Positions 35,725 to 64,000 of a stretch of 64,000 nt of DNA are shown here, piece after piece. Source of the stretch: Sulfitobacter sp. M05 (GTDB lineage: Bacteria > Pseudomonadota > Alphaproteobacteria > Rhodobacterales > Rhodobacteraceae); the NCBI RefSeq assembly GCF_029285175.1, contig NZ_JABEDH010000007.1, positions 62,001 through 126,000 of the forward strand. The letters run 5' to 3'. The number at the start of each line of letters is the position of its first letter. The stretch's first letter is position 1. Position numbers and translations under genes: made by a program. The notes beneath the pieces were generated by a model, which worked only from the letters and a program-made list of their open reading frames with translations, had not been told where the DNA came from and searched no databases.

Positions 35725-36489
35725 ATGCCACAGGATCAATCCGACAAAATCGCAAAGCTCTATCGCATGGTTATGACCGACCATACCTGTCCTTACGGTT
35801 TGAAATCAAAGGATTTGCTGCAGCGTCATGGATTCGATGTCGAAGATCATCATCTGACCACGCGTGACGAGACTGACGCGTTCATGAAGAAACATGGCGT
35901 AGACACTACGCCCCAGACCTTCATTGATGGTGAGCGGGTAGGGGGCTATGACGCACTGCGCATCCATTTTGGATTGGACAAGCCCGATGACGAAGAGTCT
36001 GAAACAACCTACCAACCCATCATCGCGATATTTGGGATGGCATTTCTGATGGCGCTTGCGCTTTCTTGGTACAGCTTTGATACTGTCTTTACCCTGCGCG
36101 CTTTTGAATGGTTTATCTCACTTTCGATGTGCTTGCTGGCTGTCCAAAAACTTCAGGACGTTGAACAATTCTCGACCATGTTTTTGAATTACGATCTGCT
36201 GGCGCAACGCTGGGTTCCTTACGGCAAGGTCTATCCATTCGGTGAGGCGATCGCGGGTATCCTGATGACCGCAGGGGCGCTGACGTGGATATCGGCTCCG
36301 GTTGCCATCTTCATAGGCTGCATCGGCGCGGTGTCGGTGATAAAGGCGGTCTATATCGACAAGCGAGAGCTTAAATGTGCATGCGTAGGTGGGGCCAGCA
36401 ACGTCCCGTTGGGGTTCATATCGCTTACAGAAAACATAATGATGTTCGTGATGGGTTTCTGGATACTGGGTAAGATGTTCTCATCTTGA
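35725..36489 (+). CDS. Glutaredoxin-MauE/DoxX fusion membrane protein
   Basis: 254 aa. Residues of about 10-85 are a glutaredoxin domain with the active site TDHTCPYGLKSKDLL and the cis-Pro loop TTPQTFIDGERVGGY. Residues of about 95-250 are a MauE-like membrane domain of four helices with a terminal Cys pair (LKCACVGG). MauE-type domains serve disulfide metabolism in methylamine dehydrogenase maturation. The fusion could carry thiol electrons across the membrane. It follows the DUF305 gene in a CueR-type unit. Confidence 0.83.
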   Translation: MPQDQSDKIAKLYRMVMTDHTCPYGLKSKDLLQRHGFDVEDHHLTTRDETDAFMKKHGVDTTPQTFIDGERVGGYDALRIHFGLDKPDDEESETTYQPIIAIFGMAFLMALALSWYSFDTVFTLRAFEWFISLSMCLLAVQKLQDVEQFSTMFLNYDLLAQRWVPYGKVYPFGEAIAGILMTAGALTWISAPVAIFIGCIGAVSVIKAVYIDKRELKCACVGGASNVPLGFISLTENIMMFVMGFWILGKMFSS

Positions 36490-54805: not shown

Positions 54806-54836
54806 TGGATTGTTCCGCGCCGTGCCTGATGCTGCT

Positions 54837-54923
54837 GAGAGGAAGAGGAAGGTCAGCCCGGGTTGCCGGGCTTTGAAGGGAGAGAGAGGCTCTCCCGGAC
54901 CGGCTCCAAGAAGGAGCTCTCCG
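54837..54923 (+). promoter_or_regulatory. Structured leader, family 1, before the ParB-like gene
   Basis: Elements in order: purine-rich GAGAGGAAGAGGAAGGTC; hairpin AGCCCGG-GTTG-CCGGGCT (54855-54872); second hairpin GGGAGAG-N5-CTCTCCC (54878-54896); GGTC (54851-54854) can pair with GACC (54898-54901), enclosing both; then AAGGAGCTCTCCG before the ATG. Leaders at 58697 and 60546 repeat this order with changed stems. Confidence 0.65.
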
Positions 54924-57035
54924 ATGACCAACCCTAAATCCAAATCCGCAGCCAAGTCCAAGGCGGCTGGCGCTGCCAGCTTGCCAGAGCTGGAACCGCA
55001 AATGATCCCGCTTAACAAGATTGTGATCAGCCCAAAGAACGTCCGCAAGACACCGGCGACCGATGACCAGGATGCCGAACTTTACGCCAGTATCAAAGAG
55101 ACCGGCCTCAAACAGAACCTTCTCGTGCACAAAGTTGGCACGAAGTTTCATGTGCATGCCGGCGGGCGACGTTTGGCGGCCCTGAACAAGCTGGCGGAAG
55201 AGAATATCATTAAGCCTAACCATCCGATCGCGTGCTCTGTGGAAGATCCGGATCAGGCCGAAGACACATCCGCTGCTGAAAACATGATCCGCGCCGCCAT
55301 GCATGCTGCCGATCAGTTCGAGGCATTTGCTGCATTGCGCAAAAAGGGTCGCTCTGAGGATGAGATTGCAAAACGGTTCGGGATTACTAACGATCTCGTG
55401 CGCCGGCGTCTCAAGCTCGCCTCGGTATCACCCGACCTGATGCAGATTTTTCGGGAAGGTGAGATGTCGCTCGATTGCGTCATGGCCTTCACATTGACCG
55501 ACGATCACGCGCGCCAGGTTGAAGCGTGGGAGGTAGTCAAGCAGCACTACAATCCCTCCCCCCATTCGATCCGGAACCATCTCACCCAGAAATCCTATTC
55601 CGGCTCCTCCAAACTGGCTCTGTTCGTCGGTATCGACGCATACAAGCAAGCAGGCGGTTCCGTCATTGAGGACCTCTTTTCCGAGCGCGACGCGATGCAT
55701 CTGGAGGATCCAGACTTGCTGGAGAAATTGGCGATGGATAAGCTACAAGGTCTGGTTGCGGACGCGACCAAGATCTGGAAATGGGCGGAGGCCTGTCTGG
55801 ACGTCGACTATGATAGCTTTCGTCCATACGGCCGGATCTATCCGCAACCGCTCGATCCCGATCCGAAGCTCGCCGCAGAAAAAACCAAACTGGAAAACCG
55901 TCACGCCGTCCTGGAAACGGATTACGATGAGCAGATGTGGACAGAGGAACTTCAGGAAGAAGAAGATCAGATCTGGAAACGCATCCGCGAAATCGACGAA
56001 ATCGAGGAAGCCAACGTTGCCTACACCGACGGTGACTACAAGATCGCCGGATGTATCGTAAGCATCTCCCATAATGGCGAGGCGCGGCTAGAAACCGGGT
56101 TGGTGCGACCCGCGGACATTCCCAAACCGGCCGATACTGATGTTGTAGATAACGCCGAAGGCGGATCATTTTCTAAAGGTAACAACACCCTTTCAGGACC
56201 GGCCATCGAGCTTCCGGCCGCGATGTCTCGACCCGATACCCCATTGAACGCAACCGACGCGGCGCGAAAGGCCCAAGGGATGCCACGGTCTCTGGCCGAC
56301 GATCTGCGGGCGACGCGGCATCAGATCATTCGGGCGCATTTGGCGGCTGATTATGCCACCGCCTATGACGCGATGCTCTATGCGATGGTCACCTCGGTTT
56401 TCGGCAATTACCGTCGCGAGTCTCCTCTTGATCTATCGCTGCGTCCCGCGACGACAACGGCATCACGGGAGACTCTGAAAGACACTGTTGCTGAACGCAT
56501 GCTCGAAGCGCTTAATGACGGTCTCAACATTGCTTGGATGGAGGCCAAGGCACCGGAGGATCTAGCGCAACTGTCAGCGCTGTCTGAGCCTGACAAACAG
56601 GCGTTGTTCGCGTGGTGTGCGGCCTATGCGCTGAACCAACAGCTCTCCAATGATACTGGCGCAAGCGCTGTGATCGAGGCGATCGGATCACGTCTCAATG
56701 TGGATGTTGCCGCCTGCTGGCGTCCGACGGCCGATACCTATTGGGGTCGGGTAAAGAAAGACCATGCACTCGATATGGCAAAGGCGTTGATTGATGATCG
56801 TTGGGCAGATGATAAGTCGGGGCTGCGCAAAGCCGAGATCGCAAAAGCGATGGAACAGGCCTTCTGCGACACGCCGCAAGAGGCGGCTGGTCTGACGGCA
56901 CAGGCCGCTGCCAAGACATCCCGCTGGTTGCCAGACGGAATGGTTGTTGGCGAAGAGGCAGCTAATCAGGCGAAACTCAACTCGGTAGAAGTTGACGCAG
57001 ACACCCTGCCCGCATTCATGAGCGACGCAGCTTAA
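54924..57035 (+). CDS. ParB/Spo0J-family plasmid protein, long form
   Basis: 703 aa from the ATG at 54924 (AAGGAG upstream). The ParB N-terminal domain spans residues of about 25-130, with LYASIKETGLKQNLLVHKV, HVHAGGRRLAALNKL (the CTP/DNA-binding box) and AAENMIRAAMHAADQFEAF. The HTH (DEIAKRFGITNDLVRRRLKL) follows. A long C-terminus of about 450 residues has an acidic coiled stretch (QEEEDQIWKRIREIDEIEE). Such long ParB-like proteins of alphaproteobacterial plasmids are not typical partition proteins; there is no parA next to it. It may be a nuclease or anti-defence protein. Confidence 0.85.
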   Translation: MTNPKSKSAAKSKAAGAASLPELEPQMIPLNKIVISPKNVRKTPATDDQDAELYASIKETGLKQNLLVHKVGTKFHVHAGGRRLAALNKLAEENIIKPNHPIACSVEDPDQAEDTSAAENMIRAAMHAADQFEAFAALRKKGRSEDEIAKRFGITNDLVRRRLKLASVSPDLMQIFREGEMSLDCVMAFTLTDDHARQVEAWEVVKQHYNPSPHSIRNHLTQKSYSGSSKLALFVGIDAYKQAGGSVIEDLFSERDAMHLEDPDLLEKLAMDKLQGLVADATKIWKWAEACLDVDYDSFRPYGRIYPQPLDPDPKLAAEKTKLENRHAVLETDYDEQMWTEELQEEEDQIWKRIREIDEIEEANVAYTDGDYKIAGCIVSISHNGEARLETGLVRPADIPKPADTDVVDNAEGGSFSKGNNTLSGPAIELPAAMSRPDTPLNATDAARKAQGMPRSLADDLRATRHQIIRAHLAADYATAYDAMLYAMVTSVFGNYRRESPLDLSLRPATTTASRETLKDTVAERMLEALNDGLNIAWMEAKAPEDLAQLSALSEPDKQALFAWCAAYALNQQLSNDTGASAVIEAIGSRLNVDVAACWRPTADTYWGRVKKDHALDMAKALIDDRWADDKSGLRKAEIAKAMEQAFCDTPQEAAGLTAQAAAKTSRWLPDGMVVGEEAANQAKLNSVEVDADTLPAFMSDAA

Positions 57036-57059
57036 CGCCAAGTCGAAAGGTTCAGCTCT

Positions 57060-57159
57060 TGGATCGTTCCCATCCCACCAAGGGATCGGGGGCGGTCCTA
57101 TCGCGCTGTCGGGCAAACCAGTGCCGAATGGGTCGGCCATCCCGCCATGGAGAAAGATC
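57060..57159 (+). promoter_or_regulatory. Structured leader, family 2, before the DUF3768 gene
   Basis: Core CGGTCCTATCGCGCTGTCGG (57093-57112) and a closing CATCCCGCCATGGAGAAAG before the ATG. The leader at 57592 shares the core CGGTCCTATC-N-G-N-CTG-N-CGGG and the CGCC/CGGAGA ending, so the two form a repeated family distinct from family 1. Confidence 0.55.
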
Positions 57160-57567
57160 ATGAACCAGGCAACACAATCTACCGCACCGCAAGATGAACA
57201 GGACGTCACCAATCCTGCGATTGCAGCGATCATCGCGCAACAAAACGATGCTTTCCGCACATCCGTGACCGCATCTTTCAAAGCGCCAAGTGTCCCGCCC
57301 GGCAAACTCGTCATGACAGCCGGCATCGCTGCACAAAGCGATGAATTCCGCGCTGCGCTCATCGAGGCGCTGGTCGCCTTCGATGCGTTCGACGCCAATA
57401 GCGACCCTTACGGATTGCACGAGATGGGTGTGCTCGAAATCGAAGGTGAACGCGTCTGGTTCAAATTTGATCTGTATGATGAAAACTACGAATACGGTGC
57501 GGAAACACCGACCGATCCCAAGCGAACCCGCCGTGTCCTGACGTTGCTGCTTCCATCCGAATACTAA
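57160..57567 (+). CDS. DUF3768 protein
   Basis: 135 aa from the ATG at 57160. The conserved DUF3768 region includes NDAFRTS, GKLVMTAGIA, NDPYG-like SDPYGLHEMGVLEIE and the acidic FKFDLYDENYEYG, ending VLTLLLPSEY. These proteins occur on alphaproteobacterial plasmids and mobile elements; the function is unknown. It lies 124 nt after the ParB-like gene and has its own leader. Confidence 0.85.
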   Translation: MNQATQSTAPQDEQDVTNPAIAAIIAQQNDAFRTSVTASFKAPSVPPGKLVMTAGIAAQSDEFRAALIEALVAFDAFDANSDPYGLHEMGVLEIEGERVWFKFDLYDENYEYGAETPTDPKRTRRVLTLLLPSEY

Positions 57568-57591
57568 CCGCAACACGTGCCCATTGATATC

Positions 57592-57686
57592 TGGACCGTT
57601 CTCATGATCGAGGACGGTCCTATCCGTCTGACGGGTTTCACAAGGGGCCGGATGATCCGGGCTCGCCCGTCACGGAGACCAGACAA
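57592..57686 (+). promoter_or_regulatory. Structured leader, family 2, second copy
   Basis: Core CGGTCCTATCCGTCTGACGG (57615-57634), preceded by GGACCGTTCTCATGATCGAG that can pair with GGACGGTCC, and followed by GGGCTCGCCCGTCACGGAGACC before the ATG at 57687. Confidence 0.55.
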
Positions 57687-58004
57687 ATGGCTAAACCCTG
57701 CGAATACAAAGTCACGCTTCACCCCGCCCACAAAGACCGCGGTTTCGTCGTCACCAAATACGACATCTTTGGTGGCACCTATCCCAGCAAAGAGTTTACC
57801 GCAGCCGGGATGGAGGATCTCGTCGATCAGGTCACGCATTTCGCGATGGAACATGGCGAGGGCTGTAACGCGTCGGTGCGCTGTCTCGCGCCGCGTAAAC
57901 CGCCCGGCTTCAAAAAGGCCACCGAGAACCTCTATTTCAACCTCTTGAGCAAGGAGCAGTTTGAGGCCGCCGAGGCCAGGAAGGCTGAAAGCGCCGCCGC
58001 CTGA
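57687..58004 (+). CDS. Plasmid-backbone protein of unknown function (105 aa)
   Basis: No signal or membrane helix. A compact alpha/beta pattern is visible: CEYKVTLHPAHKDRGFVVTK, AGMEDLVDQVTHFAMEHG, then CNASVRCLAPRKPPGFKK, ending in an Ala/Glu-rich helix. It shares the family-2 leader with the DUF3768 gene, so the two are probably expressed together. Followed by a terminator-like hairpin. Confidence 0.65.
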   Translation: MAKPCEYKVTLHPAHKDRGFVVTKYDIFGGTYPSKEFTAAGMEDLVDQVTHFAMEHGEGCNASVRCLAPRKPPGFKKATENLYFNLLSKEQFEAAEARKAESAAA

Positions 58005-58031
58005 TCAATCCAAAACATTAATACAAAGACC

Positions 58032-58066
58032 AAGGCTCGCCAATCACGGCGGGCCTTTTCGTCTTT
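58032..58066 (+). terminator. Rho-independent terminator
   Basis: A 10-bp stem (AAGGCTCGCC / GGCGGGCCTT, one G-T pair, 6-nt loop) followed by TTTTCGTCTTT. It separates the 57687 gene from the one at 58088. Confidence 0.7.
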
Positions 58067-58087
58067 GCCGGAAAGAGGAGAAGACCA

Positions 58088-58666
58088 ATGGAAAACCCCA
58101 TCTATGAGGAAACTTACCGAGACCACACCATCAAAATCATGTACGATACCGATCCCGAAAGCCCTCGCGACTTTGACAATATCGGCACGATGAATTGCTG
58201 GCACCGCCGCTACACTCTTGGCGACAAACACGACTATGCCGATCCCCGTGAGTTGCTGATCGACCTCTGCGACTTTGATAGCGATACCGAACTTTCGATG
58301 AACGCCCTGTTCGAGAGGGCCGAAAAGCGCGCCGTTATCTTACCGCTCTATCTCTATGATCACAGCGGCATCACCATCAACACCACAGGGTTTCACTGTC
58401 CGTGGGATTCCGGCCAGGTCGGCTACATCTATGTGACGCTGGATGACGTCCGCAAGGAACACAGCGTCACCCGCGTCTCAAAGAACTTGCGTACCAAGCT
58501 CGCAGATTATCTGCGCCAAGAAGTCCAAACCTACGACCATTATCTGACCGGAAATTGCTACGGCTTCGTTGTCGAAAAGGATGAGAACGAGGTCGCGTCC
58601 TGCTGGGGGTTTTTGGGCGATTATGACGGCTATTGTTTGGCTGAGGCTAAATCGTCGATGAACTGA
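58088..58666 (+). CDS. Conserved mobile-element protein (192 aa)
   Basis: Cytoplasmic, acidic. Distinctive stretches are LPLYLYDHSGITINTTGFHC, PWDSGQVGYIYVTLDDVRKE and a C-terminal YDHYLTGNCYGFVVEKDE. I recall proteins with the YDHSG..I and CPWDSGQVG motifs on many plasmids and phages, but no assigned function. GGAAAGAGGAG lies just before the ATG. It lies 83 nt after the previous gene, past the terminator. Confidence 0.7.
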   Translation: MENPIYEETYRDHTIKIMYDTDPESPRDFDNIGTMNCWHRRYTLGDKHDYADPRELLIDLCDFDSDTELSMNALFERAEKRAVILPLYLYDHSGITINTTGFHCPWDSGQVGYIYVTLDDVRKEHSVTRVSKNLRTKLADYLRQEVQTYDHYLTGNCYGFVVEKDENEVASCWGFLGDYDGYCLAEAKSSMN

Positions 58667-58696
58667 CACCGCCGCGCGTCTTGCTTGGCGGCGCGC

Positions 58697-58794
58697 CTGC
58701 CGGAAAGAGGGAGAGGCTGATTGGGAAAGGGCAAGCCTTCCCCTATGAGAGAGAGTTTCCGGGAAGGCGTCACCCCTCTTCAAGGAGCTTTCCG
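58697..58794 (+). promoter_or_regulatory. Structured leader, family 1, before the GHKL ATPase gene
   Basis: Purine-rich AAAGAGGGAGAGG; hairpin GGGAAAGG-N4-CCTTCCC; GAGAGAGTTTCCGGG; then CCCCTCTT, which can pair with the opening AAGAGGG; AAGGAGCTTTCCG before the ATG matches the 54911 leader almost base for base. Confidence 0.65.
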
Positions 58795-60459
58795 ATGAAT
58801 ACCCCAACATCCTTTCACGCCTGCGTCGCTGATGACGCGATCTCCAAGGTATCACGTCTGTTCAACGCCACATTCGAAGATATCTTTGCCGAATTATTTC
58901 AAAACGCACGCCGCGCCGGAGCGACACAGATCTCAGTGAGCCAGATCGATTATCCCAACATCGGTCCAGTTATCTGCCTGATCGACGACGGCCCCGGTCT
59001 TAACGATCCCAGAGACCTTTTCACACTGGGACAGAGCGCGTGGGACGAGGACGTTCAATCGATGGAAGACGCAGCTGGCATGGGGTTTTTCTCTTTGGCT
59101 GGTCGAAGGGTCAGGATCATAGCCCAGAAACAGGGCACGCCCCAATCTTGGATGATCGATGCCCAACCCGACAGTTTTGGCGGAACGGTTCCGATCACTT
59201 GCAATGACGGCCCCGCCAACCATGATGGCACCACGATCTTAATCGCCACCAAAGCCAACGAAAGCTATGTCGCTGCCGCCAACCACGCAGCGCGGTATTT
59301 GCCCTTTGACGTCATGGTCGACGGCGTGCGCGTCGAGCGCAAAGATTTCCTGTCAGATGCCGAGCACATCGAAGAGTGGAACGGCATTCGGATCGGGATC
59401 TATGAACGCGGCCCGATCAGTTTCCGTAACAACGAGACGGTCAATTTTCACGGAGTGACCCTCTATGGCCGCTTGCCGAGCGTGGGCCAAGAATTCCATC
59501 GATCATACTACGCACGTCTGGATGTCATCCAGTGCACAGATATCAAGCTGGTTCTGCCCGCCCGTAAGGAAATCGTCGAGAACGCCTTCATGGACGAACT
59601 GCGCACCCATATCAGCACCATCTTTTATCAACTGATCAAAGCAGCTGGACCGCATTCTCTCTCCTATGACAATTTCAAGCGCGCCGCCGAGTTTGGCATC
59701 CATTTGCCGCCAGCCGCGATGCAATTGCGTGTGTTCGAGCCGAGCCACGCGGACAGCGACCAAAATGGCTATGGCAAGGTCGAAGTGATTGACGCAGATG
59801 ATGTTGTCTTTGATTCAGAAGGTGGCGCGATCGAGGAGCAGAATCTCGCCTTCGCGCTCTCCGCCCAGCGTGCTGAAACCAAACTTTATGATCCTAAAGT
59901 CGGATTTGAAGGCTACGATTGGTATGACCAACTGGCCCGGGTGTCGGTCAAAGGATACCGCATCATCGGTGATACTGACACGGTGTGCGTCGAGCCGGGC
60001 AAACGCCACACGATGATCGAGCGGCCAGATCAATTGGAAATCCATTGCACATTGTCAGATGCGCCCCTTACCGAGGAATGGACCCTGGCAACGGACTGGT
60101 TGATCTTCGGGGAAGATGATTGGGGTCTGGATGAGGTTGATATCGTCGTCACCAAGGCGTCCAAGGCGACCAGTGCCGATCTCGTCGATTTCCTCGAACA
60201 TGCTCTGTTCAATCCATCGGATGATAGCGAAGCCGGGTCCTTCGATCAGCAGCAACGTTGGTTCCGTGATGAGGCTGAAGACCTCGCCATCAATATGCTC
60301 GAGACCAGCCTTGAGGCGCAAATCAATGCGATCACCCGCGTTATTGATCGCGAGCTCTATTGGCTGCGCCGACAGGATCAGATCATTACAGTCATTATTG
60401 GCAAGGGGCGGATTGATGTCAGCGGGTTGGCCACCCAGCAGGTGACAGCAGCTGAGTAA
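58795..60459 (+). CDS. GHKL/HSP90-like ATPase of the plasmid backbone
   Basis: 554 aa. The ATP-binding motifs are in order: N-box ELFQNARRAGATQI (about residue 32), G1 LIDDGPGLNDP (about 60), and G2 DAAGMGFFSLAGR (about 92). The rest of the protein has no recognised domain. The GHKL fold is shared with HSP90, MutL and Morc proteins, some of which act in defence or anti-defence. It sits between two genes with family-1 leaders. A role in plasmid establishment is inference. Confidence 0.82.
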   Translation: MNTPTSFHACVADDAISKVSRLFNATFEDIFAELFQNARRAGATQISVSQIDYPNIGPVICLIDDGPGLNDPRDLFTLGQSAWDEDVQSMEDAAGMGFFSLAGRRVRIIAQKQGTPQSWMIDAQPDSFGGTVPITCNDGPANHDGTTILIATKANESYVAAANHAARYLPFDVMVDGVRVERKDFLSDAEHIEEWNGIRIGIYERGPISFRNNETVNFHGVTLYGRLPSVGQEFHRSYYARLDVIQCTDIKLVLPARKEIVENAFMDELRTHISTIFYQLIKAAGPHSLSYDNFKRAAEFGIHLPPAAMQLRVFEPSHADSDQNGYGKVEVIDADDVVFDSEGGAIEEQNLAFALSAQRAETKLYDPKVGFEGYDWYDQLARVSVKGYRIIGDTDTVCVEPGKRHTMIERPDQLEIHCTLSDAPLTEEWTLATDWLIFGEDDWGLDEVDIVVTKASKATSADLVDFLEHALFNPSDDSEAGSFDQQQRWFRDEAEDLAINMLETSLEAQINAITRVIDRELYWLRRQDQIITVIIGKGRIDVSGLATQQVTAAE

Positions 60460-60466
60460 GATCAGC

Positions 60467-60493
60467 GACGGGATGGCTATCTGCTATCCCGTC
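60467..60493 (+). terminator. Hairpin after the GHKL gene
   Basis: GACGGGAT-N11-ATCCCGTC, a perfect 8-bp stem directly after the stop codon. There is no T-run, so termination is uncertain. Confidence 0.4.
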
Positions 60494-60545
60494 TCAGGAA
60501 CAAGAATACGACCCTCCCTCATTGCTAGGCGCGGTCCAGCATGGG

Positions 60546-60652
60546 TTTTCCGCAAAGAGGGAGAGGAAGGTCCGGGGAAAGGGCAAGCCCTCCCCGGTGT
60601 CAGAGAGAGTTCTGCGGGGATGGGTGGCAACCCTTTGACCTGGAGATTTCCC
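60546..60652 (+). promoter_or_regulatory. Structured leader, family 1, before the DarB-like gene
   Basis: AAAGAGGGAGAGGAAGGTC, hairpin CCGGGG-A3-GGGCAAGCCCT-CCCCGG (60572-60597), GAGAGAGTTCTG, small hairpin GGGTGGCAACCC, and GACC (60637-60640) pairing with GGTC (60569-60572) to enclose the structure; then TGGAG before the ATG. Confidence 0.65.
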
Positions 60653-63600
60653 ATGACAGATATGCTTACTGCAGGCGCGCCGTCGCGTGCCGCCGCGCTG
60701 CTTCAGGCGGCCCATCAACTGCTTCCATATTTTGAACAGGGCAAAGCGCTCGACCAAAAGATCGTGCGTGCAGCCATGGAGGCCGCTTTTGGTGGCTCTG
60801 ACGCCTCCGGGGCTTGGGTATGGAAGGACGGATACGAAGTCGGCGAATGCGCGCAGATCCTGCTGCTGCTCAAATATGGCGCACTGATGCGTCGCCAATG
60901 CGACACGCCCGCCAAGTTCTTGGCAATTGTGGAGAAGATTGCGGGCTTCGCACTATCACACACCCGCCGCAGCGAGACTTCGCAAAAGCTGCAGCAATTC
61001 TCGACGCCTCTGCCACTGTCTTGGATCGTTGCCGAAGCTGCGCAATGTCGGGCTGATGATGTCGTTCTAGAACCCTCCGCCGGCACCGGCCTCTTGGCGA
61101 TCTACGCGAAGTTGGCGGGCGCAAAACTTCATCTTAACGAGATCGATGATGTCCGTGCTGACCTGTTGGGCGAACTGTTCCCTGATGCCGCAGTAAGCCG
61201 TCATGATGCCAGTTCAATAGATGATCGGCTGGATGCGTCCGTTTCGCCGAGCCTTATCATCATGAACCCGCCGTTCTCCGCCGCACTCAGTGTTGAAGGT
61301 CGCTACAAGGCCGCGATGGGACAGCATGTTCTGTCGGCGCTTGATCGGTTACAGCCAGATGGCCGGTTGGTCGTTGTCTCCGTCGCCAACGTTTCTCAAG
61401 CAAACACGGCGTTCCGCTCCGCCTTCAAGCGCATCGGCGAGATCGCTACGATCCGCTTTTCCGCGCCGATCGCGGGCCGGGTTTACGCGCGCCACGGCAC
61501 GACGACCGAAACCCGCCTGACGGTCATCGACAAGCGCGAAGGTCTCACCCCCGATCTGACCGCCGCCTATCATGATCAGGCGGAAAGCTCGCAAGCGCTT
61601 CTGGCCTTGGTGCAAGCCCATTGTCCGCCCCGCTTGATTTTTGAGCCAACTGAACAGGCCGCAAACGCTTCAAGGTCCTCAGTTGTGCAGTCACCATCAA
61701 TCCAATCTTTGCGAGATAAAGCGCGCAGCCAGGTGCGGGCGGTAGAGGCGGAGAAAGCACGGCATCCATTTGATCTGATCGAGGCAGAAGAGATCGCCTA
61801 CCTACCGAAACTCTGGACGGAAAAATCAAGCCGTCTGACCGAGGCGCTTTATGAAGGTTATGAGGTTCAGTCGATTACCATCGAAGGCGCACATCCGCAT
61901 CCAACGGCCCTTGTGCAATCAGCTGCCATGGCTTCGGTCGCACCACCCCTTCCCTCCTATCGACCTAAATTGCATGCCAAGCTGATCACGGACGGCGCGC
62001 TGTCCGACGCACAGATCGAAAGCATCATATACGCGGGGGAGGCCCACGAGCAACATTTGAGCAGCTGGTTCCGTCATGATGACGAAGACCAACGCCTTAT
62101 CGCGTGTGAAGCGGATGCCGAAGACGGGTTTCAATTGCGCAAAGGCTGGTTCCTCGGGGACGGTACGGGCTGCGGCAAGGGCCGACAGGTCGCGGGTGTC
62201 ATCCTCGACAATTGGGTGCGTGGGCGCAAGCGGGCGATCTGGGTTTCAAAATCCGACAAGCTGATCGAAGATGCGATCCGCGACTGGACTGCCATTGGCG
62301 GGCGTGTCTCTGACATCGTGCCCCTGTCCCGGTTCAAACAGGGCTCAGACATTCGCCTCGAACAAGGCATTCTGTTCGTCACCTATGCGACGCTGCGCAC
62401 GGCCGAACGCCAGCATGACGATATCCTCAAAGCTTCCCGGCTCGATCAGGTCACCGCTTGGCTCGGCAAAGGTTTTGACGGCGTGATCGCATTCGATGAA
62501 GCCCATGCGATGGCGAACGCTGCAGGCGAAAAGGGAAAGGAAGGCGGACGGGGCGACAAACAGGCCTCGCAGCAAGGTCTAGCCGGATTAAAACTTCAAA
62601 ACCTCGTGCCCGATGCACGGGTGCTCTATGTCTCGGCAACAGGTGCTACGATTGTTGGCAATCTCGCCTATGCCTCTCGTCTCGGTCTCTGGGCAACCGG
62701 TGACTCACCCTTTGCCACGCGCGAACAGTTCATCGCGGACATGGAAGCGGGCGGAATTGCTGCGATGGAGATCATCTCGCGCGATCTTAAAGCGCTCGGT
62801 CTTTATCTGGCGCGCTCGCTGTCCTACGAGGGTGTCGAATACGAGATGCTGGTGCACGATCTCACACCGGCACAGCGCGACATTTACGACAGCTACGCCG
62901 AAGCGTTCCAGGTGATCCATACCAATCTGGAAGCGGCACTTGAGGCTTCAGGCATTACTGCCGAGGACAGCACGCTAAATGTGCAGGCCAAATCAGCGGC
63001 CCGGTCAGCGTTCGAGAGCAATAAGCAGCGCTTCTTCAATCACCTGATCACCGCGATGAAATGCCCGAGCGTGATCAAATCCATGCAGAACGACTTAGAG
63101 AACGGTGCATCGGCGGTGGTTCAGATCGTCTCAACAAGCGAAGCCCTTATGGAACGGCGTCTGGCGCAGATCCCGGCATCGGAATGGCATGATCTGCATG
63201 TCGACATCACGCCGCGGGAATACGTATTCGATTATCTGATGCATTCGTTTCCAACCCAATTATTCGAGCCCTACACCGACGAAGACGGCAACCTCAAATC
63301 CCGTCCGGCGCGTGATGGTGATGGGAACCCGATTGAATGCCGGGAGGCGGCACGCAAACGCGATGCCATGGTCGAACGGCTTGGAGCACTGGCACCGGTG
63401 CAAGGCGCTCTCGATCAGATCTTGTGGCATTTCGGGAAAGAGCACGTAGCTGAAGTCACAGGACGCTCCCGGCGCATTGTCCGCACGCGCGATCATCGCC
63501 TGAAGGTCGAAAACCGGCCGGGATCATCCAACATCGGCGAGACGCAAGCCTTCATGAACGATGCCAAGCGCATCCTGATCTTCTCGGATGCGGGCGGGAC

Positions 63601-64000
63601 AGGACGCTCCTACCATGCCGATCTTGGGGTTAAGAACCAAAGATTGCGGGTGCATTATTTGCTGGAGCCGGGCTGGCGGGCAGACAACGCAATCCAGGGG
63701 TTGGGCCGCACAAACCGCACCAATCAGGTGCAGCCGCCGTTGTTTCGACCCTGTGCGACCAACGTCAAAGGCGAAAAACGGTTCCTGTCGACGATTGCGC
63801 GACGGCTCGACACGCTCGGAGCCATCACCAAAGGCCAGCGCGAGACCGGCGGCCAGAACATGTTCCGTACTGAGGATAATCTCGAAAGTGCCTATGCCCG
63901 CAAGGCCCTGCGCAACTTCTTCTGGGATTTGACAAAGGGGCGGATCAGCGCGTGTTCGCAGACGAGGTTCGAAGAGATGACCGGCCTGTCACTCATGGAC
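60653..64000 (+). CDS. DarB-like methyltransferase-SNO helicase, 3'-truncated by window edge
   Basis: 1116 codons are open to the edge with no stop. Residues of about 140-260 form an N6-adenine-type methyltransferase (LEPSAGTGLLAIYA; NPPFSAALS). From about 490 it is a strawberry-notch-type SF2 helicase with Walker A GDGTGCGKGRQV, DEAHAMAN, the SAT motif (YVSATGAT) and the C-terminal GWRADNAIQGLGRTNRTNQ. The combination matches DarB of phage P1, an antirestriction polyvalent protein. On plasmids it is thought to protect incoming DNA. The family-1 leader precedes it, and the start is at 60653. Confidence 0.88.
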   Translation, partial: MTDMLTAGAPSRAAALLQAAHQLLPYFEQGKALDQKIVRAAMEAAFGGSDASGAWVWKDGYEVGECAQILLLLKYGALMRRQCDTPAKFLAIVEKIAGFALSHTRRSETSQKLQQFSTPLPLSWIVAEAAQCRADDVVLEPSAGTGLLAIYAKLAGAKLHLNEIDDVRADLLGELFPDAAVSRHDASSIDDRLDASVSPSLIIMNPPFSAALSVEGRYKAAMGQHVLSALDRLQPDGRLVVVSVANVSQANTAFRSAFKRIGEIATIRFSAPIAGRVYARHGTTTETRLTVIDKREGLTPDLTAAYHDQAESSQALLALVQAHCPPRLIFEPTEQAANASRSSVVQSPSIQSLRDKARSQVRAVEAEKARHPFDLIEAEEIAYLPKLWTEKSSRLTEALYEGYEVQSITIEGAHPHPTALVQSAAMASVAPPLPSYRPKLHAKLITDGALSDAQIESIIYAGEAHEQHLSSWFRHDDEDQRLIACEADAEDGFQLRKGWFLGDGTGCGKGRQVAGVILDNWVRGRKRAIWVSKSDKLIEDAIRDWTAIGGRVSDIVPLSRFKQGSDIRLEQGILFVTYATLRTAERQHDDILKASRLDQVTAWLGKGFDGVIAFDEAHAMANAAGEKGKEGGRGDKQASQQGLAGLKLQNLVPDARVLYVSATGATIVGNLAYASRLGLWATGDSPFATREQFIADMEAGGIAAMEIISRDLKALGLYLARSLSYEGVEYEMLVHDLTPAQRDIYDSYAEAFQVIHTNLEAALEASGITAEDSTLNVQAKSAARSAFESNKQRFFNHLITAMKCPSVIKSMQNDLENGASAVVQIVSTSEALMERRLAQIPASEWHDLHVDITPREYVFDYLMHSFPTQLFEPYTDEDGNLKSRPARDGDGNPIECREAARKRDAMVERLGALAPVQGALDQILWHFGKEHVAEVTGRSRRIVRTRDHRLKVENRPGSSNIGETQAFMNDAKRILIFSDAGGTGRSYHADLGVKNQRLRVHYLLEPGWRADNAIQGLGRTNRTNQVQPPLFRPCATNVKGEKRFLSTIARRLDTLGAITKGQRETGGQNMFRTEDNLESAYARKALRNFFWDLTKGRISACSQTRFEEMTGLSLMD

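Follow-up and report, generated by a model that had tools for sequence, protein, structure and literature searches.

The window analyzed here is a 64,000-nucleotide stretch of Sulfitobacter sp. M05 (Rhodobacterales), corresponding to bases 62001 to 126000 of the 137,370-base contig NZ_JABEDH010000007.1. Near its end, a run of genes on the same strand encodes a ParB-like protein, a DUF3768 protein, two proteins of 105 and 192 amino acids (aa), a GHKL ATPase, and a DarB-like protein (Table 1). A preliminary description, made from the letters of the window, had placed structured leaders directly in front of the ParB-like, GHKL, and DarB-like genes, each with a purine-rich opener, a hairpin, and a GAGAGAG stretch. 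The three leaders were confirmed as placed, all with these parts and ending at the start codons of their genes, although RGAGAGAG by itself is not rare (6 occurrences against 2.3 expected). Two further members were found in the same run, a clear one before the gene of the 105-aa protein and a weak one before the DUF3768 gene.

On other plasmids of alphaproteobacteria, the stretches upstream of homologous genes have these elements in the same order. A total of 122 leaders were collected, 58 of which were kept at <90% identity, and 30 of these 58 entered alignment A2. The typical member starts with a GA-rich opener, AGAGnnAGAGG, followed by a nested stem that reaches to a few bases from the ribosome site and carries an apical hairpin with a GAGAGAG loop. 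In class B (ParB-like, ArdC, DUF932, and PAPS-reductase-like genes), the opener is followed by an outer stem, GTGACGGG/CCCGTCGC, the GAGAGAG apical hairpin and, immediately afterwards, the ribosome site. Class C, found before darB, has the opener and then a nested four-helix hairpin with GAGAGAG in the apical loop, and its opener can pair with a CTCTC located 5' of the ribosome site. Class A and the darB and GHKL leaders of Rhodobacterales, including those of the window, have an extra hairpin (P1) before the apical part.

Two covariance models, neither including window sequence, were built from these collections. R1 derives from 30 class B leaders and R2 from 29 class C leaders, 22 of them from a set of 80 darB loci. 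The source of R2 was a group of 39 leaders chosen for the CTCTC, reduced to 34 after excluding three with no pattern match and two near-copies, and to the 29 of alignment A6 after leaving out five divergent ones (L048, L187, L203, L211, and L230). Searching 877 kb with R1, we recovered the window leaders of the ParB-like and DarB-like genes together with the two additional members, while R2, in 795 kb, matched those of the GHKL and ParB-like genes. The window GHKL leader was not reported by R1 nor the darB leader by R2 (E-values up to 1), so that only the leader of the ParB-like gene was matched by both. Because each model detects members of other classes and both match this leader, we consider the classes tied together.

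Table 1. Leaders, genes, and other features of the window (E, expectation value; MFE, minimum free energy)
Feature	Position	Strand	Evidence and remarks
TraA-like relaxase, MobA/MobL and helicase domains	1-3571		Gene start precedes the window
Leader of ParB-like gene, class A	54831-54926	+	R1 E 9.6e-7; R2 E 0.014 (match 54838-54926); MFE fold
Parts of this leader	Opener 54838-54848; P1 54855-54861/54866-54872; apical P3 54878-54884/54890-54896	+	Loop AGAGG; ribosome site; ATG 54924
ParB-like protein, 703 aa, behind leader	54924-57035	+	PF02195 E 2.2e-4, below cut-off; homologues annotated ParB/RepB/Spo0J family
Weak member before DUF3768 gene	57074-57162	+	R1 E 0.065; ATG 57160
DUF3768 protein	57160-57567	+
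Terminator-like strong hairpin	57560-57695		z -3.69
Member before gene of 105-aa protein	57596-57689	+	R1 E 5.4e-4; ATG 57687
Terminator-like strong hairpin	58000-58095		z -3.84
Leader of GHKL ATPase gene	58697-58797	+	R2 E 0.0074 (match 58706-58797); MFE fold; ATG 58795
Parts of this leader	Opener 58705-58716; outer stem GCCTTCCC 58735-58742/GGGAAGGC 58761-58768	+	Stem encloses GAGAGAGAG 58747-58755
GHKL ATPase, 554 aa, behind leader	58795-60459	+	PF13589 E 9.8e-5, below cut-off; relatives in 81 plasmid records
Leader of DarB-like gene	60546-60655	+	R1 E 0.047 (match 60549-60655); MFE fold; ATG 60653
Parts of this leader	Opener 60555-60566; closing pair 60569-60572/60637-60640; outer stem 60591-60596/60615-60620; GAGAGAG 60603-60609	+
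DarB-like adenine methylase and strawberry-notch helicase	60653-64000, continues past window end	+	PF13872 E 1.4e-117; PF13871 E 3.7e-81; PF05175 E 2.4e-5

The changes in the stems indicate selection on structure, as the preliminary description had proposed from stem differences that keep pairing. In the class B alignment, 21 cells were changed on both sides of a pair, against 6.3 after shuffling, and two-sided change affected 9 of the 16 pairs, against 4.1 (neither value was reached in 500 shuffles). Class C had 26 two-sided cells compared with 12.1 in the shuffled alignments, again reached by none of 500. These shuffles do not take out the relatedness of the sequences, and sliding of the pairing partner retains it; by this second measure, pairing was found in 90.9% of class B cells, against 37 to 46% with the partner slid, and in 89.8% of class C cells, against 38 to 59%. 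For the class C nested hairpin, RNAalifold independently gave a nearly identical structure. The closing pair that had been described for the window leaders, read here by eye, had a mixed outcome: the GGTC/GACC of the darB leader becomes GGTT/AACC in the relatives L166 and L182, a compensatory change, while that of the ParB-like gene leader is lost in L166, L017, and L018. The member before the gene of the 105-aa protein has a GACGGG/CCCGTC stem enclosing a GC hairpin, and this arrangement is kept in L166, L182, and L017. A recent duplication of leaders within the window was rejected because each of them is closest, by eye, to its counterpart before that gene elsewhere, in other organisms.

Which strand folds could be judged from wobble pairs, since a G.U on the coding strand is an A.C on the opposite one. 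Cells with G.U and A.C numbered 30 and 11 in the class B apical stem and 50 and 19 in class C helices P1 to P3; for the class B outer stem they were 32 and 3, a raw ratio that is overstated because a single pair (39/84) supplies 14 of the 32 G.U cells, equal to the column expectation. Folding energies controlled for composition had a mean z of -2.15 for the coding and -1.54 for the other strand, and 44 of the 58 leaders folded better on the coding strand (Wilcoxon P = 1.8e-4). Upstream of the leaders, none of 75 positions in 89 leaders anchored at the opener had a base above 55% or an AT-rich step (the anchor was misplaced by several bases in a small number of openers, so the columns are slightly blurred), and the conserved block begins at the opener. 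Neither was a -10 box enriched inside 91 leaders: no leader matched TATAAT in five of six positions, and 14 matched in four of six, against 19.5 expected. With no conserved promoter upstream and no enriched -10 box within, transcription probably starts from variable places or reads through from the preceding gene.

These data bear directly on the proposal that the leaders are hairpin promoters like Frpo, in which the transferred strand would fold and the gene be transcribed by RNA polymerase of the host ahead of second-strand synthesis. The kinds of genes involved would fit, and a self-contained promoter is conceivable precisely because no upstream promoter is conserved. Frpo/ssi elements are likewise structured and lie 5' of leading-region and anti-defence genes (PMC11541004), and published searches for new Frpo, according to that paper, use -35, -10, and UP elements. 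The leaders differ in having no enrichment of a -10 box and in folding on the coding strand, and the helices of the models have only 5 to 8 pairs each, although nesting brings those of class C to 23 pairs. Three leader-bearing MOBP plasmids had a relaxase in the fetched stretch (pUSP2, Paracoccus albus p3, and Ruegeria unnamed4). There the clusters lie on the same strand as the relaxase gene and read towards it, so that, assuming the places of the origin of transfer (oriT), the template would be the strand that is transferred. This geometry would suit transcription of the entering strand, yet because it is the coding strand that folds while the template strand is transferred, the folded strand would not be the entering one. 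Given the wobble changes, the folding energies, and the lack of a conserved upstream promoter or an enriched internal -10 box, we favor RNA over an Frpo-like promoter, which we regard as improbable.

Matches of the models were tightly placed with respect to genes. In the 80 darB loci (1.3 Mb), R1 gave 120 and R2 79 matches with E up to 0.1 (199, some at coincident places), every one of them on the coding strand. We then followed 115 matches not at darB with E up to 0.01, comprising 14 of R2 and 101 of the 104 of R1 (one was left out for lying at a contig end, one at darB, and one for an E of 0.01). In 104 of these 115, the end of the match was exactly the start codon of an open reading frame (ORF) of at least 40 codons, a situation found in 2.3% of 2,300 random positions, and in 113 such a codon was a few bases or less away, compared with 29% at random. 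Double-stranded DNA operators, in which a DNA-binding protein reads the GA-rich sites and the dyad, would also account for the sequence conservation of both, but no conserved promoter adjoins the leaders, and neither their preference for the coding strand nor their fixed place right at the start codon is expected from an operator, making this the explanation to which we give least credit. In a class-wide draw, R1 matched 28 of 385 genomes, and in a phylum-wide draw 30 of 349, all 30 within the class of the window (the number of the 349 that come from other classes is not shown).

The genes behind the leaders support the earlier idea of a structured cis-acting element 5' of establishment and anti-defence functions. 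In alphaproteobacteria, related leaders precede genes of ParB-like and DarB-like proteins, ArdC, DUF932, DUF3768, DUF6878, RadC, and ArdB/KlcA. The 113 genes behind the followed matches, assigned to families by BLAST clusters with one or two scanned members each, comprised 48 ParB-like, 13 DUF3768, 12 ArdC, 7 DUF6878, 6 of a 398-aa family, 2 RadC, 2 GHKL, 1 ArdB/KlcA antirestriction gene, and 22 others, mostly with no nameable family. The 398-aa family had no Pfam match, and it is 79% identical to an annotated DUF932 protein behind a pUSP2 leader. PMC5512222 describes ParB-like nucleases, ArdC, and DarB-like methylase-helicases as effectors that act in the early phase of phages and conjugative elements. 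Genes of the defence type (type I restriction, AbiE, and a Drt5 reverse transcriptase) were also seen on the leader-bearing plasmids L265 (Paracoccus albus p3) and L264 (Roseovarius pelagicus).

Within gene families, a loose pattern detected the leader in 51 of 52 closer ParB-like homologues (60 gene starts in 54 genomes of the order) and in none of the 8 distant ones. This distant subfamily (L128 to L135) has a common upstream block of its own, with GGCCC...GGGCC and GATCCCCG...CGGGGAT dyads. At the 80 darB loci, a leader was found in 64 by script and in 15 more by eye (L192 truncated), and the remaining one had no upstream sequence. The DUF3768 leaders of L003, L009, L010, and L011 were matched by R1 with E between 1.3e-6 and 1.3e-4. 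Yoonia SS1-5 (L013), with a GHKL gene and a MOBF relaxase on the opposite strand, had no R1 or R2 match. A Roseomonas plasmid (L072, ca. 35990 to 36080) carries a long tandem GGGAGAGC run 5' of a short ORF.

None of the leaders in the window and in stretches from 24 relatives matched Rfam 15 at the gathering score; in four plasmid stretches, Rfam identified two group II introns, a fluoride riboswitch, and ar15, none at leaders. When three stretches were scanned permissively, all matches stayed below threshold, the best being a flavivirus stem-loop (E 0.0012; 22 bits, with the cut-off at 38). The closest candidate by gene context is the radC RNA (RF01754), named as possibly the same element in the preliminary description. 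RNAs of this kind occur in 5' leaders of radC and other DNA-handling or antirestriction genes, often plasmid borne, and the present leader precedes RadC (2), ArdC (12), and ArdB/KlcA (1) among the 113 genes. However, the RF01754 model is 149 long, compared with 94 to 98 for the present leader. In 18 genomes or records it never scored above the 40-bit cut-off; even when E was relaxed to 10, none of its matches there fell at a known leader (contig numbers of G967 to G969 were not mapped), and neither R1 nor R2 had a match below E 0.3 at the eight loci where RF01754 matched best. Identity with the radC motif, which appears as a proteobacterial candidate in the 2010 catalogue, was therefore rejected. 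STAXI (RF01728) is similar in adjoining single-strand-binding, topoisomerase, and antirestriction genes, and its authors weigh RNA against single-stranded DNA, but it consists of repeated pseudoknots in Enterobacteriales; it had no gathering-score match in the window or the four plasmid stretches, and no other pseudoknot search was made. No such leader is named among the literature titles listed, a search that left out the 2017 catalogue of 224 RNAs and supplements, so absence from print is unproven. We take the leader to be probably an RNA control element not described before, shared by a set of genes that many alphaproteobacterial conjugative plasmids probably need when they enter a new cell.

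The contig of the window encodes a MobA/MobL relaxase on the same strand as the leader cluster, separated from it by ca. 70 kb provided that the contig is circular, and beyond the window there are genes that resemble a type IV secretion system, as judged by us from the ORFs. The terminator-like hairpins listed in Table 1 lie between genes of the cluster, and L003, L010, and L011 have comparable GC hairpins 5' of hypothetical genes and of DUF3768.

Taken as a whole, the explanation that we favor, with a probability of about 60%, is that these leaders form one family of cis-acting RNA elements located in the 5' untranslated region and ending at the start codon, since this explains their position, strand, covariation, and upstream edge. 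A further argument is that this leader recurs before unrelated gene families that belong to one programme. That they act in cis at the level of RNA appears likely. Comparison of sequences shows the family, its structure, its preference for the coding strand, its position, and its gene sets.

Several observations weigh against this reading or qualify it, in addition to the class B pair mentioned above. Two-sided change in class C affected 9 pairs against 5.2 in shuffled alignments, a value reached by 11 of 500 shuffles. The pairing of opener and CTCTC in class C is invariant and thus uninformative for covariation, in leaders that were selected for the CTCTC, and its mismatches were five A.C and one other, with no G.U. 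GAGAGAG is missing from some members, such as the two additional ones of the window, and almost no consensus structure emerged when class A and mixed class C were first aligned with MAFFT. Folding of single sequences compared with shuffles gave z values of -1.30 (ParB-like), +0.25 (GHKL), and -2.36 (darB), only the last being clearly more stable. An alternative outer stem competing with P1 could be drawn in all 16 leaders examined, with P < 0.05 against shuffled 3' parts in 3 of the 16 and a combined P of 8e-5 over related sequences; in the window, the mutually exclusive fold was no better than shuffles (P = 0.56 for the ParB-like gene and 0.31 for darB), and we do not claim a two-state switch. 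Finally, the ribosome site was as accessible as in 36 control genes (unpaired 0.31 versus 0.35).

A ribosome site that is not unusually hidden, in a leader ending at this site and the start codon, would also suit a constitutive ribosome-loading or mRNA-stabilizing leader, whose GA stretches and stem would raise translation or lifetime with no regulator. Against it, two GA elements that keep their places while the stems vary, across many families of organisms, resemble a recognition site, and many other genes on the same plasmids do without the leader; we consider it rather unlikely.

For the RNA element, the conservation of the GA-rich opener and of the GA loop points to a common factor, and we see even chances that both are contact sites of one trans-acting protein or small RNA. 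Such a factor could set the translation of establishment and antirestriction genes jointly. It might hold translation down in cells where the plasmid is resident and, being absent from a fresh recipient, allow a burst on entry, although this direction (off in resident cells, on in new ones) is a guess. Equally speculative is an extension to the whole class, a post-transcriptional entry regulon in which one leader family would join ParB-like, DarB, ArdC, ArdB/KlcA, RadC, GHKL, and DUF genes, with a single GA-reading factor producing zygotic induction at translation, independently of promoters, which would explain the absence of upstream conservation.

How establishment and antirestriction genes of a plasmid are turned on after entry is understood best from F-like plasmids and single-stranded DNA promoters. 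If the proposed regulation is true, there would be a second, RNA-level solution for the control of entry genes across the alphaproteobacteria. The leader is a handle for finding uncharacterized establishment or anti-defence genes behind it, and the factor that would read the GA sites becomes a clear search target.

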